From Halalkalicoccus jeotgali B3 (GTDB taxonomy: Archaea > Halobacteriota > Halobacteria > Halobacteriales > Halalkalicoccaceae), in contig NC_014297.1 in the NCBI RefSeq assembly GCF_000196895.1, forward strand, positions 1,722,295-1,786,294: 64,000 nt of DNA, in the 5' to 3' direction. Both the position numbers and the translations under genes were made by a program. Shown one piece after another: positions 40,472 to 44,802 of the stretch. How positions within the stretch are numbered: position 1 is the first letter of the stretch; each line of letters opens with the position of its first letter. The notes beneath the pieces were generated by a model that saw nothing but the letters and a program-made list of their open reading frames with translations, did not search any database and was not told the origin of the DNA.

Positions 40472-40771
40472 CTACGCGACGACCTCTTCGCCCTCCTCTT
40501 CGGGGGTTTCGAGGCGCTCGACGACGTCGTTTACGAGTACCACGTCGCCGACCGCCCGAACCCATCGGTAGGGGATGAGGACGCCACGGGTGCCCCGGAC
40601 GTCCGCTCCGAACAGCTCTTCGTTGGGGTCGCGCAGCGCGAGACCCGTGACGATCTCGGTCCCGAGATCGAGTTTGATGTCGTCGACTTCGCCGACGAAC
40701 ACGCCGTTGTTCGAGTAGACCTCGCGGCCCACGAGCGACGTGATCTCTTGGGACGTTCGCTCCTGATCCAT
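40472..40771 (-). CDS. PRC-barrel domain protein (CdpB-like)
   Basis: A 99-residue protein consisting of one PRC barrel: ITSLVGREVYSNNGVFVGEV, DDIKLDLGTEIVTGLALR and RGVLIPYRWVRAVGDVVLV. In Haloferax volcanii the PRC-barrel proteins CdpB1 and CdpB2 help assemble the division ring with SepF and CdpA. The convergent DHH gene next door matches the neighbourhood I remember for CdpB1, but this was not checked. Start at ATG 40771, with a TATA-like ggtataatacc about 20-30 bases upstream, suggesting a short leader. Other PRC-barrel roles (RNA binding or membrane association) remain possible. Confidence 0.8.
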   Translation of the reverse strand: MDQERTSQEITSLVGREVYSNNGVFVGEVDDIKLDLGTEIVTGLALRDPNEELFGADVRGTRGVLIPYRWVRAVGDVVLVNDVVERLETPEEEGEEVVA

Positions 40772-40904
40772 ACACGCACGTCGAACGGCGGGGTATTATA
40801 CCCTCGGATGTCACCCCTCGACACGCCCGTCCGTTCCCGGCGGCCGACCCGGCTAATATATAAATAACAAAAACTTTTATATACTATCACACACCTTCCG
40901 AGGA

Positions 40905-41023
40905 GATTCCCACCCCGTGATGTAAAGAGGCTTCCCGAATAACCCCCAGTCGCCGGGTGCCTCTGACAGACCGGCAACGCCGACGACCGTCCTTGCCCGG
41001 GACTCGGTCGTCGGGGATTTTCG
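40905..41023 (+). ncRNA. Candidate structured non-coding RNA with its own promoter and terminator hairpin
   Basis: A strong TATA-like box (cttttatata, 40874-40883) within an AT-rich tract predicts a start near 40905. Downstream there is no credible reading frame, but two clear stems: AGAGGC/GCCTCT (40926-40931 with 40959-40964) enclosing CCCG/CGGG (40934-40937 with 40954-40957), and a terminal 10-base-pair stem CCGACGACCG/CGGTCGTCGG (40980-40989 with 41005-41014) followed by GGATTTT. GTGATG at 40918 and CTGA at 40963 resemble box C and box D, so a guide RNA is one option. I do not recognise the family. It occupies the 294-base gap between two divergent or unrelated genes. Confidence 0.55.
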
Positions 41024-41065: not shown

Positions 41066-41983
41066 TCAGTCACGTCTGATCGTCGCCCGAACCCTCGGGA
41101 TCGGATCGTAGCGTTCCTCCGTATCGCCAAGCACGAACAGTCCGACGTACCGGAGGTAGGTCACGAACGGGACGTGAACCAGCAGGATCAGCAACAGGAC
41201 CACGAGCAGGTACGGCCCCAACAGGGTGCCGATGATCGCCTGATCGACGACGGAACGCGACAACCCCTGAGCGACGAGCGCGCCGCCGACGGCCGTTCCG
41301 AGGGCTCCGAAGGGAACGAGAACGACGAGCGCTACCAGCGCGCCGAGCAGGCCGCCCCCGAGCGCAATCGCCGCCCAGAGGGCCGCCGCGATCAGCAAGT
41401 AGAGCGCGTACTCGCGCCATTCGGCACCGAGCGCCGGCGAGAACGCCCGCCACCCCGCCGCCAGCGAACACCCCTCCAGAAGCATGATCGGGACGACGAA
41501 CGCGCGCGTCAGGTGATCGATGGCGAGACACGCGAGCGCGAGCACGAGCGCGCAGACGGCGAGCGCCGCCGGAGGCTCGAACGAGAGGACCGCGACTGAC
41601 AGGCCCCCCGCGAGCGCCACGAGGACGACACGCAGCGCGAACACCTGTAGACCGGCCCGAAAGCGCCGGGCGCTGTCCGCAACCAACCGTATCCGTTCGC
41701 CGCGAAGCGCGTCGAGAAAGACGAACTCGAAGACCGAGCCGACACAGAGCGCCGCCGCCCCGAGGACCACCGCCGCCGCCAGCAGGCCGGCCGTCGCCGT
41801 CTCCGGGAGGGCCGCAAGCACTGACCCGCCGCGGTTGAAGTCGGTGAGAAACGGCGTGATCAGCGTTCCGACAAACGACGCGAGGACCGCAAAGCGGAGC
41901 CACGCCGAGAGCGACGCCCCCGCGAGCAGCCGTCGGGCCGCACTCACTGACTCGCCGACCGCCCGGAGTGCGTACCACGCCAT
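41066..41983 (-). CDS. Multi-pass membrane protein (DUF7544-like)
   Basis: A 305-residue integral membrane protein of about six helices, starting MAWYALRAVGESVSAARRLL. The helices include FAVLASFVGTLITPFLTDF, AAVVLGAAALCVGSVFEFVF and ALYLLIAAALWAAIALGGGL. The layout (a cytoplasmic amphipathic start, then a glycerophosphodiester-phosphodiesterase-membrane-domain-like repeat) resembles a haloarchaeal family I recall as DUF7544. No catalytic motif is visible. ATG 41983 is preferred; a GTG-type start further upstream adds unconserved residues. It precedes no coupled gene, since the znu operon ends 38 bases upstream on the same strand. Confidence 0.7.
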   Translation of the reverse strand: MAWYALRAVGESVSAARRLLAGASLSAWLRFAVLASFVGTLITPFLTDFNRGGSVLAALPETATAGLLAAAVVLGAAALCVGSVFEFVFLDALRGERIRLVADSARRFRAGLQVFALRVVLVALAGGLSVAVLSFEPPAALAVCALVLALACLAIDHLTRAFVVPIMLLEGCSLAAGWRAFSPALGAEWREYALYLLIAAALWAAIALGGGLLGALVALVVLVPFGALGTAVGGALVAQGLSRSVVDQAIIGTLLGPYLLVVLLLILLVHVPFVTYLRYVGLFVLGDTEERYDPIPRVRATIRRD

Positions 41984-42020
41984 ACGACCCGTACCCGTGG
42001 CGAACACTTATGCGTGCGGA

Positions 42021-42992
42021 TCAGCGCGCGCCCGATCCGGCCCGGTTCGGCGCGGCGATCGAGAGCAGGTAGATCCCGATGGCGACGACGACGATCGTCG
42101 CGCCGGGTGCAAGCGAGTAGCGCCACGAGAGCAACAGGCCCGCGACCGCCGCACACTCGCCGACGAGGACCGCCGCGAACAGCGAGTCCCGGAACCCGTT
42201 GGTGAGCTGTGCGGCCGCCGCGACGGGCACGACCAGCATCGCCGCCACGAGGATGACTCCGAGGATCTGCATCGAGCCGACGACGACCATCGCCGTCAGG
42301 ACGATCAGCAGGGTGTTGTACGCCGAGACGTTGAAGCGGGCGACGCGGGCGGCCTCCTCGTCGAACGTGATGTACAAAAGCGGCTTGTAGGTCAGCGCGA
42401 CGGTTCCGACGACGGCGATGCTTAAAACCGCCATCAACAGGACGCTCCCGCCGCCGACGGTCGCGATCGAACCGAAGAGGATGCTGTTGATGTCGACGGT
42501 CGCAAAGCCGCCGCCCAGACTGATGACGAGTGTGCCGAGCGCGAAACTGCCTGTGAGCATGATCGCGATCGGAACGTCGCCGTAGGAGCCGGTGCGGTCG
42601 GCCAGAAACTGCACGGCGAGCGCGCCGACGATCCCGGCGACCAGCGCCGAGAGCAAGAGCGGGGTGCCCCACCCCGACCCGGCAAACAGCAAGGTACCGA
42701 CCGCGACGCCCGCGAAGGCGGCGTGGGCGAGGGTCTCGCCGATCAGCGCCATCTCACGATGGACGAGGTAGGTGCCGATGACGGGGCCGACGATCCCGAT
42801 AAACACCGCCGTCGTCAGGGCGTTCCAGACGAACCCGTAACAGGCGATCGAGGTCCCGAACGACCGGCCGGCCGAACAGGAGGCCTCGAAGAAGACACGG
42901 GGCATGATCCCGAACGCGATCGGGACGAACAGACCGAGGACGGCGACCCCGAAGACGACCAGAAGGATCTGCCGAAGGCGTTTCGAGACCAT
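42021..42992 (-). CDS. znuB: Zinc/manganese ABC transporter permease
   Basis: An ABC-3 family permease with about eight to nine helices (323 residues). Conserved parts are MALIGETLAHAAFAGVAVGT, FGSIATVGGGSVLLMAVLSI and LLIVLTAMVVVGSMQILGVI with LVAAMLVVPVAAAAQL. An extra N-terminal segment (FGIMPRVFFEASCSAGRSFG) carries two Cys-bearing loops outside the core. It forms one importer with the ATPase and binding protein encoded just upstream; its ATG overlaps the ATPase stop (TGATG). The His-rich binding protein points to zinc, though manganese cannot be ruled out. Confidence 0.92.
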   Translation of the reverse strand: MVSKRLRQILLVVFGVAVLGLFVPIAFGIMPRVFFEASCSAGRSFGTSIACYGFVWNALTTAVFIGIVGPVIGTYLVHREMALIGETLAHAAFAGVAVGTLLFAGSGWGTPLLLSALVAGIVGALAVQFLADRTGSYGDVPIAIMLTGSFALGTLVISLGGGFATVDINSILFGSIATVGGGSVLLMAVLSIAVVGTVALTYKPLLYITFDEEAARVARFNVSAYNTLLIVLTAMVVVGSMQILGVILVAAMLVVPVAAAAQLTNGFRDSLFAAVLVGECAAVAGLLLSWRYSLAPGATIVVVAIGIYLLSIAAPNRAGSGAR

Positions 42993-43738
42993 CAGTGGCC
43001 GTGTTCGATCAGTCGACTGTTTGTTCCGTACGCGCGTGCGAGCGCGTCGCTCTCGACGAACCCCGCCGGATCGCCGTGGTGGTACAGTTCGCGGTTGATG
43101 CAGGCGATCCGGTCGGCGTGGTCGGTGACGACCCCGATGTCGTGTTCGATCAGGACGACCGTGATCCCCCGATCGGTCAACTCGTCGAGCAGAGTGTAGA
43201 AGGCGTCCCGGGAGTCGGCGTCGACCCCGACCGTGGGCTCGTCGAGTGCCAGCAGGTCCGCCTCGCCCGCCAGCGTCCGGGCGATGAAGGCGCGCTGTTT
43301 CTGCCCACCGGAGAGCTCGTTGATCCGGCGGTCCGATAGTTCGGCGATCTCCACCCGTTCGAGGGCCTGCTGGACCATCTCGCGGTCGTGACGTCCCAAC
43401 CGTCCGAAGCGCGTATGCGGGTACCGCCCCATCGTAACGACCTCCCTGACCGTGATCGGCATCGTCCGCTCCGCGCCCGTCGAGTGCTGGGAGACGTAGC
43501 CGAGGCGCTCGCCGTCGTCGAACGCGTCTACCGGCTCGCCGAACAGCTCGACCCGCCCGGCGTCGGGGGCGACCAGCCCCAGCATCAGCTTCAACAGGGT
43601 GGTCTTGCCCGAGCCGTTGGGCCCGACGAGCCCGAGGAACTCGCCGTCCTCGACGGTTAGCGAGACGTCCTCGACGGCGGGCCGGCCGTCGTAGGCGAAG
43701 GTCACGTCCTCGAGACGGACGATCGGCGACTCGCTCAC
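42992..43738 (-). CDS. znuC: Zinc/manganese ABC transporter ATP-binding protein
   Basis: ABC ATPase of 248 residues. Walker A GPNGSGKTTLLKLMLG, Q-loop VSQHSTGAERTMPITV, signature LSGGQKQRAFIARTLAGE and Walker B LLALDEPTVGVD are all intact, with the H-switch in VVLIEHDIGVV. It starts at a GTG (VSESPIVRLEDVTFAYDGRP) that overlaps the znuA stop as GTGA; an earlier in-frame start would run into znuA. It is the middle gene of a znuA-znuC-znuB operon and powers metal import. Confidence 0.94.
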   Translation of the reverse strand: MSESPIVRLEDVTFAYDGRPAVEDVSLTVEDGEFLGLVGPNGSGKTTLLKLMLGLVAPDAGRVELFGEPVDAFDDGERLGYVSQHSTGAERTMPITVREVVTMGRYPHTRFGRLGRHDREMVQQALERVEIAELSDRRINELSGGQKQRAFIARTLAGEADLLALDEPTVGVDADSRDAFYTLLDELTDRGITVVLIEHDIGVVTDHADRIACINRELYHHGDPAGFVESDALARAYGTNSRLIEHGH

Positions 43739-44802
43739 GACCCCGCCCCCAGTGCCGCCCGGAGCGCCGGGAGGTTGATCTCGCCCATCTGGCCGACGTA
43801 GTCGAGCCCCTCCGCGTCCCATTCGGTGGTAATGCTCTCGGCGGGCGAGAGCGCCGCCACGTCGCGTACGGTTCCGGCCTCCTCGGCGATGGTTCGAGCG
43901 AGGCTGTCACCCTCGAAGTGGTCGTAGAGGACGACCTCGATCCCCTCGCGCTCGATCAGATCGACCGTCTCGGCGATCTGGGACGGGGTGGCCTCGGTCT
44001 CGGGGGAGACGCCCTGTGGGGTGTGGATCTCGAATCCGTAGCGCTCTCCGAGATAGCCATACGAATCGTGACCCGCGACGACGACGGTGTCGTGGTCCCG
44101 ACCCGCGAGCCCCTCCTCGAAGCGTCCGTGAAGCTCCTCGAGGTCCGTGAGGTAGGAGCCGGCGTTCTCCTCGTAGGTCTCGGCGTTCTCGGAGTCGGCC
44201 TCCATCAGCCCGTCCCGGATCGTCTCGACGACCTGCCGGGAGCGCACCGGATCGACCCAGACGTGGGGGTCGTAGTCGCCCTCCCCGTGGTCGTGGCCAT
44301 GCTCGTGATCGCCGTGATCATGGTCGTGATCGCTTTCGTTATCGTGGTCGTCGCTGTGACTGCCTTCCCCGCCGCCGTCGTGGTTATGGTCGTGGCCGCC
44401 GTATTCGGAGAGTTCGACGTCCTCGGCGGCGGCGATTGACGCCACGCCCTCGTGGTTACGCTCGATCTCGCCGACGACCTCGTCGGCCCAGCGCTGGAAC
44501 CCCTCGATCCCGAGGTGGACGAACGCGTCGCGCTCGACGATCTCGACGGTGATGTCGGAGCGAGGCTCCCAGCCGTGTCCGTGCTGGCCCATCGGAACCG
44601 CGTTCTCGACGGAAAGCGCCTCGCCAGCGACGTTCCGAGCGAAGTCCGCGAGCGTGAAAAACGAGGCCGTCGCTGCGGCGCTGTCGTCCGATTGGCCCCC
44701 CACGCTCGGCGCGCCGCTGCCCAACGAGTCCAAACAGCCGGCAGTTGCGGTGGCGAGTGCGCCGGCTCCCCCCGTCAGGAATCGGCGCCGTGTTCGGTTC
44801 AT
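43735..44802 (-). CDS. znuA: Zinc ABC transporter substrate-binding lipoprotein with His-rich loop
   Basis: A cluster A-I metal-binding lipoprotein (355 residues). The Tat signal MNRTRRRFLTGGAGALATAT ends in a lipobox (AGC). The central metal-site region shows MGQHGHGWEP-like His residues and GDYDPHVWVDPVRSRQVVET. Between them is a long Asp/His loop (about residues 135-195, for example DHDNESDHDHDHGDHEHGHD), the hallmark of zinc-specific binding proteins. VVVAGHDSYGYLGERYGFEI and the terminal EGDSLARTIAEEAGTVRD region complete the fold. It is the first gene of the operon, with a putative promoter in the 75-base gap upstream. Confidence 0.93.
   Translation of the reverse strand: MNRTRRRFLTGGAGALATATAGCLDSLGSGAPSVGGQSDDSAAATASFFTLADFARNVAGEALSVENAVPMGQHGHGWEPRSDITVEIVERDAFVHLGIEGFQRWADEVVGEIERNHEGVASIAAAEDVELSEYGGHDHNHDGGGEGSHSDDHDNESDHDHDHGDHEHGHDHGEGDYDPHVWVDPVRSRQVVETIRDGLMEADSENAETYEENAGSYLTDLEELHGRFEEGLAGRDHDTVVVAGHDSYGYLGERYGFEIHTPQGVSPETEATPSQIAETVDLIEREGIEVVLYDHFEGDSLARTIAEEAGTVRDVAALSPAESITTEWDAEGLDYVGQMGEINLPALRAALGAGS

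Follow-up and report, generated by a model that had tools for sequence, protein, structure and literature searches.

Genomic Context and Elements of the RNA Gene

The stretch of Halalkalicoccus jeotgali B3 DNA that was analysed (the window) is 64,000 nucleotides long. The element described here lies on its + strand, in a gap between a PRC-barrel gene (40472–40771, − strand) and a gene for a DUF7544 membrane protein (41066–42007, − strand). A first-pass annotation made from the sequence had described this gap as lacking a coding frame, and the absence of a long frame was confirmed for the + strand. A small protein-coding ORF was also considered and rejected: of 91 homologues, 39, 91 and 84 have stops in the respective three reading frames that run through the seed region, and none is generally open. 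Near the element, on the − strand at 42021–44802, ORF translations indicate metal ABC transporter-like genes encoding a His-rich binding protein, an ATPase and a permease.

Homology searches and covariance models place a small RNA (sRNA) of about 115–120 nt at 40904–41021 on the + strand. Judging by the position of the TATA box, its 5′ end would fall at about 40902–40910; the 3′ end would lie at about 41021. The TATA-like box noted in the first-pass annotation is present as TTTATATA at 40876–40883, with an A-rich tract upstream, and a second TATA-like stretch lies at 40856–40866. A similar box is found between −130 and −40 relative to the seed in 78 of 91 homologues, mostly near −80 to −85. 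The 5′ part of the RNA carries a conserved motif, RTGANGTAAAG (40917–40927); in the alignment its loose form occurs in 67/91 sequences and GTAAA in 41/91. Hairpin 1 consists of a 5′ arm GCCGG (40952–40956), a 12-nt seed loop GUGCCUCUGACA (40957–40968), which is exact in 84/91 homologues, and a 3′ arm CCGGC (40971–40975). Hairpin 2 (40981–41013) has an outer stem, 40981–40988/41006–41013, an inner stem, 40989–40992/41000–41003, and a conserved UUGCCCG loop (40993–40999); TGCCCG lies no more than 190 nt from the seed in 84/91 homologues. A terminator-like TTTT closes the element at 41018–41021, and TTTT is present downstream of the seed in 32 of the 91 homologues.

Structure of the RNA

Folding of a 124-nt segment gave z = −2.36, with 3 of 200 shuffles equally or more stable, and by itself constitutes only modest evidence of a structured RNA. 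In the consensus structure, 90% of cells are paired overall, and none of 500 shuffles matched the covariation score of the whole structure. All 11 of 11 pairs of hairpin 2 show compensatory changes; comparison thus strongly supports this terminal stem and its loop. The stem is followed by GGATTTT, as described in the first-pass annotation. The arms of hairpin 1 are kept in all 91 sequences; since its inner pairs are invariant, this hairpin cannot be proved by covariation.

The same annotation had proposed a nested core stem, AGAGGC/GCCTCT around CCCG/CGGG. The letters of AGAGGC/GCCTCT are present (40926–40931/40959–40964) and the stem is favoured by single-sequence folding of the window, though it is not kept in homologues: 45.3% of the cells of the nested structure are paired, as in shuffles, and there are no double changes. 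In the RNA of the window, AGAGGC can pair with the seed, for which the predicted unpaired probability is 0.19, versus a family median of 0.60. If formed, the AGAGGC/GCCTCT stem would mask half of the seed in this species, which may reflect self-inhibition or an error of the folding model at high salt.

GTGATG and CTGA had been suggested as possible box C/D elements. A box C/D guide sRNA was rejected: box C (RTGATGA) is exact in 0/91 homologues and found with at most one mismatch in 29/91, while CTGA lies inside the invariant seed, in the loop between GCCGG and CCGGC, and not at the 3′ end. In the consensus fold, the flanks of the putative boxes show no pairing that could form a kink-turn stem.

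At least one TGCCCG module is present in 84/91 homologues and at least two in 26/91, compared with 2 of 89 control regions. In these 26 homologues (for example L023, L092, L112, L135 and L142; the window has the module at 40993–40999), there are two to four UUGCCCG hairpins, whose stems differ and whose loop is the same; they resemble protein-binding modules. The loop of hairpin 2 was also considered as a second antisense element to the rosR gene discussed below. Of 108 rosR genes, 25, which belong largely to one clade, contain CGGGCA or CGGGTA within their initial 66 nt, and such a role is not general.

Conservation and Distribution

A BLAST search found the RNA in the same genus and beyond; three of its 14 matches (L010, L012 and L014) were dropped as chance. 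A first covariance model, built from 11 sequences, matched 93 of 292 genomes of the class, in 34 of 77 genera. The second model, built from 91 sequences, matched 99 of the 292 genomes and 36 of the 77 genera, six of the genomes weakly (E > 1e-4). Its alignment was made from 91 of 104 distinct loci; from 64 homology matches, four bacterial ones (L102, L114, L116 and L139) were discarded as chance, and L128 was left out, its upstream part being cut off. Phylum-wide, 10 of 246 genomes match, and the two outside the order, at E ~1e-3, are probably chance. Three matches to viral sequences in IMG/VR represent one coding sequence and were likewise put down to chance.

Named carriers include Haloferax (several species), Halogeometricum, Halobellus, Natrialba, Halonotius, Haloquadratum and Halalkalicoccus; the records covered do not include H. 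volcanii itself. The RNA usually lies in a conserved neighbourhood with DHH and PRC-barrel genes; many families retain this arrangement, which is missing from Haloferax and some other groups. In longer gaps, the gene of a FilR1-type regulator often lies just upstream of the RNA, in divergent orientation. Such a divergent winged-helix regulator gene was observed at L087, L098, L104 (H. sulfurifontis), L105 and L112, which belong to several genera, its FilR1 type (PF08350) being tested on L087; this regulator could control the sRNA. In the genus that includes Haloferax (g38; genomes G110, G279, G264 and G077), up to four model-family copies per genome were observed, some with another hairpin 2 and weaker promoters.

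When the window was compared with Rfam 15, the gathering score was reached only by a tRNA elsewhere in the window, and the two Rfam matches within the element itself are at chance level. A known Rfam RNA was therefore rejected as its identity, in agreement with the earlier statement that it matches no known RNA class. An independent small RNA gene, as first proposed, is well supported by its conservation, promoter, covarying terminal hairpin and conserved location, as far as comparison of genomes can tell. The first-pass annotation was thus right about the gene and, judging by the homologues, wrong about the core fold that it named.

The Proposed rosR Target Site

The seed GUGCCUCUGACA is the exact reverse complement of UGUCAGAGGCAC, positions 2–13 of the apparently leaderless mRNA of rosR, which begins AUGUCAGAGGCAC. 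RosR, a master regulator of oxidative stress and cell shape, is a winged-helix protein of the PadR type. The protein encoded by the proposed target gene is a RosR orthologue (PDB 6ez1, E = 2e-44; 6qfd, E = 1e-43), related to hsRosR of solved structure, with a PadR domain (PF03551). It is the same conserved PadR-family regulator (PMC3443676) whose regulon is known from Halobacterium RosR (VNG0258H) and from H. volcanii RosR. In the genome of the window, the sRNA gene (1763.2 kb) and rosR (2603.4 kb) are encoded apart on the same contig. A TTAAAT-type box opens 28–30 nt upstream of the rosR ATG in 97 of 108 genes, and this spacing is what suggests a transcription start at the start codon, and so an apparently leaderless message.

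RosR is present in all 194 class genomes searched, from which 110 rosR starts were obtained (108 accepted by an automatic read, the remaining two inspected manually). The canonical 12-mer site stands at the start of 96 of these 110 genes. Codon choice at this site is strongly skewed. Ser2 is encoded by TCA in 106/106 genes, compared with 1.4% of the serine codons further down the same genes; GAG encodes Glu3 in 106/108 (50% usage) and GCA encodes Ala4 in 99/102 (17.8% usage), while CAA is used in 94/103 (12.5% usage). ACA at codon 6 (35/46, versus 8.8% usage) continues the A-rich preference past the pairing region, and the codon bias must therefore be partly of another cause.

Predicted Pairing of Seed and Site and Their Concerted Changes

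The duplex of the seed with rosR has a predicted energy of −23.8 kcal/mol, the best among the 71 gene starts of the window being −17.2 kcal/mol, in a search that covered only rosR and these 71 starts; none of 2000 shuffled seeds did as well. In 43 genomes, both a model-family sRNA and rosR could be read. Seed and site pair 12/12 in 33 of them and form 10–11 Watson–Crick pairs in the other ten, two of which gain one G–U pair and one of which gains two; the loop search behind this set used near-canonical patterns, and strongly divergent loops fall outside it.

Where the site differs, the seed may differ with it. In G118 (genus g47), a hairpin loop reads GTGACTCTGACA and rosR reads TGTCAGAGTCAC, the match to the model being weak (E = 0.17). 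In all four genomes examined of genus g40 (G079, G106, G122 and G215), rosR reads TGTCAGAGGCAG, copies of CTGCCTCTGACA are present and GTGCCTCTGACA is absent from all four. These genomes hold 13 further copies of CTGCCTCTGACA. One locus with two hairpins is common to three of the genomes (L375, L377 and L402) and a second is common to all four (L374, L376, L397 and L399), its nearest TATA being on the opposite strand. The concerted change in g40 is clear in the sequences, while it is uncertain which copy represents the orthologue of the sRNA; as the four genomes are of one genus, the change may be a single event. Conserved complementarity with compensatory changes, as in a trans-acting base-pairing sRNA, is thus seen in the 33 perfect pairs, in G118 and in the four g40 genomes.

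Pairing is kept through a G–U wobble in G062 and G095, and genus g76 loses its last pair (loop ATGCC in G207 and G294; site ...GGCAA in G294). For eight of the 14 deviating rosR sites (G093, G142, G012, G192, G202, G166, G071 and G084), no matching seed was found. In two of these genomes, G071 and G084, the rosR site is lost and there are no exact copies of the seed.

Seed Copies beyond the Model Family

About two-thirds of the class genomes are missed by the covariance model, and the seed occurs there in other scaffolds, whose status as sRNAs is less certain. In the 194 genomes, the exact 12-mer was found 614 times, versus 75 for a backward control; at least one copy is present in 173/194, the commonest count being two. 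A sample of 14 model-missed genomes with exact 12-mers was examined, 30 of 32 listed sites being read. Twelve of the 30 are rosR starts, and G078 and G080 carry the rosR site only. Some further sites are shared by genomes of one genus and lie in new scaffolds (L428/L430/L441; L432/L433; L443/L444; L438/L439), which suggests, at the level of sequence, that the seed outlives its scaffold.

The genome of H. jeotgali contains 20 exact copies of the seed and 33 with at most one mismatch, compared with eight for the backward control; four of the 20 exact copies are start codons of PadR-like genes opening ATG TCA GAG GCA C. Each Halalkalicoccus genome was seen to hold about 12 further exact copies, mostly outside long frames and many on plasmid-sized contigs (L156–L168, on C2 and C3 of the window's own genome; L208–L221, in G002). 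Many extra copies look stem-enclosed by eye, an impression that the shuffle test does not support. Among 75 non-rosR sites, hairpin loops with at least six enclosing pairs are not above composition-matched shuffles: 12/16 versus 10.2 expected in the window's genome, 11/15 versus 11.6 in G002, 16/26 versus 18.2 in five other genomes and 10/18 versus 12.9 in further genera. In genus g20, several loci have two seed copies in inverted orientation, about 154 bp from each other (L222 and L223 in G179; also G090, G134, G147 and G212), perhaps a small mobile or regulatory element.

A broader reading can be offered only tentatively, and it is rather doubtful. The seed may belong to an ancient, class-wide network, in which several unrelated RNAs per genome would share a 12-nt code for leaderless messages of the rosR type, replaceable genome-wide in concert, as in g40. 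On this view, a dedicated protein partner would dock on hairpin 2, whose UUGCCCG loop is invariant and present in up to four copies. Within the window's own genome, this reading builds on the 20 exact seed or anti-seed copies, counting the four at start codons of the RosR family.

Proposed Function and Alternative Explanations

The element is best explained as a stand-alone gene for a trans-acting sRNA of Halobacteria, whose hairpin 1 seed would pair with the start of the rosR mRNA and most likely repress its translation initiation; a probability of roughly 0.8 is given to this reading. Its location away from the target, the promoter box kept in most homologues and the covarying 3′ hairpin are what would be expected of a trans-acting base-pairing sRNA, and the sRNA very probably controls the production of RosR. 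Hairpin 1 would present the 12-nt seed to bases 2–13 of the message. Because the rosR mRNA is apparently leaderless, this pairing would cover both its start codon and its 5′ end, and initiation of translation would be blocked. Comparison between genomes supports the conservation of the RNA, its perfect or near-perfect complementarity, the constraint on rosR codons and the paired changes of seed and site. It may be inferred that the RNA is transcribed, that the rosR message is leaderless, that the two pair directly in the cell and that the outcome is repression rather than stabilisation or activation.

The sign of the effect is where the closest alternative departs from this. The sRNA might pair with the rosR mRNA and protect or activate it, for instance by shielding its 5′ end from decay, as Methanosarcina sRNA154 reportedly does for an mRNA. 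The complementarity would be the same, and the sign cannot be read from its place on the mRNA alone; sequence leaves repression and protection undecided, with repression the predicted and most likely outcome. As the rosR mRNA is apparently leaderless, a duplex over its start codon should hinder ribosome entry, and protection is considered unlikely. In H. volcanii, oxidative stress reportedly left the RosR transcript unaltered (PMC5892119), an observation that favours neither sign.

The 12-mer could also be a double-stranded DNA site for a transcription factor, perhaps RosR itself, shared by the sRNA gene and the start of rosR, with RNA complementarity as a by-product. Its genome-wide excess over the backward control (614 versus 75) would fit, and copies that change together within a genus are what operators would show; coordinated change is also expected if one DNA-binding protein has sites in the two genes. 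Against such an operator, the motif in the sRNA family is always the loop between the GCCGG and CCGGC arms (91/91), and at rosR it always has the opposite orientation and lies exactly on the start codon (96/110). RosR is dimeric, whereas the 12-mer is not palindromic. Taken together, a DNA site appears quite improbable. Least credible of all, and highly improbable, is a start of rosR shaped solely by the translation efficiency of leaderless mRNA, its match to the sRNA loop being coincidental: the rare A-rich codons do run on to codon 6, but codon 3 is GAG and not GAA in 106/108 genes, the identity extends over 12 nt and co-changes are found in two genera.

Comparison with Known Systems and Implications

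Trans-acting intergenic sRNAs known from archaea, such as H. volcanii sRNA132 and SHOxi and Methanosarcina sRNA162 and sRNA154, are likewise stand-alone and base-pair with mRNA encoded elsewhere. Unlike in these, the seed and target described here are conserved class-wide with paired changes, and the target is the extreme 5′ end of an apparently leaderless mRNA. The target of sRNA162 codes for a transcription factor, according to one study (PMC5892119). The CcsR1 family (RF02791) is an example of bacterial sRNAs with C-rich hairpin loops; these show no homology to the present RNA, CcsR1 scoring 10.4 bits against the element with a cut-off of 65.3. In such bacterial sRNAs, the unpaired loop serves as a seed near the translation start and loop modules are repeated. 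As compared with the known systems, the element represents a new RNA family that, on sequence evidence, behaves like known trans-acting sRNAs; its unusual features are the deep, co-changing target and the use of a leaderless 5′ end as the site.

According to published reports, RosR is needed for the dynamics of gene expression under oxidative stress in Halobacterium (PMC3443676), its function differs among species (PMC12482152), and H. volcanii loses rods and motility when rosR is deleted (PMC13286277). No post-transcriptional regulator acting on rosR itself was found in the accessible text of the RosR regulon work. Neither an sRNA acting on rosR nor the seed printed in an archaeal context was found in the literature searched, which excluded supplementary tables with sRNA coordinates and most subscription papers.

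To our knowledge, archaeal regulatory RNAs are mostly single-species finds with loosely predicted targets. Here, sRNA and rosR can be compared throughout an entire class, and both partners show sequence changes, so that genetic models offer a direct test of the mechanism. If the proposed function is true, the RNA would be a post-transcriptional brake on RosR. It would also clearly exemplify an sRNA that targets the outermost 5′ bases of a leaderless message, in which there is no Shine–Dalgarno site to mask.
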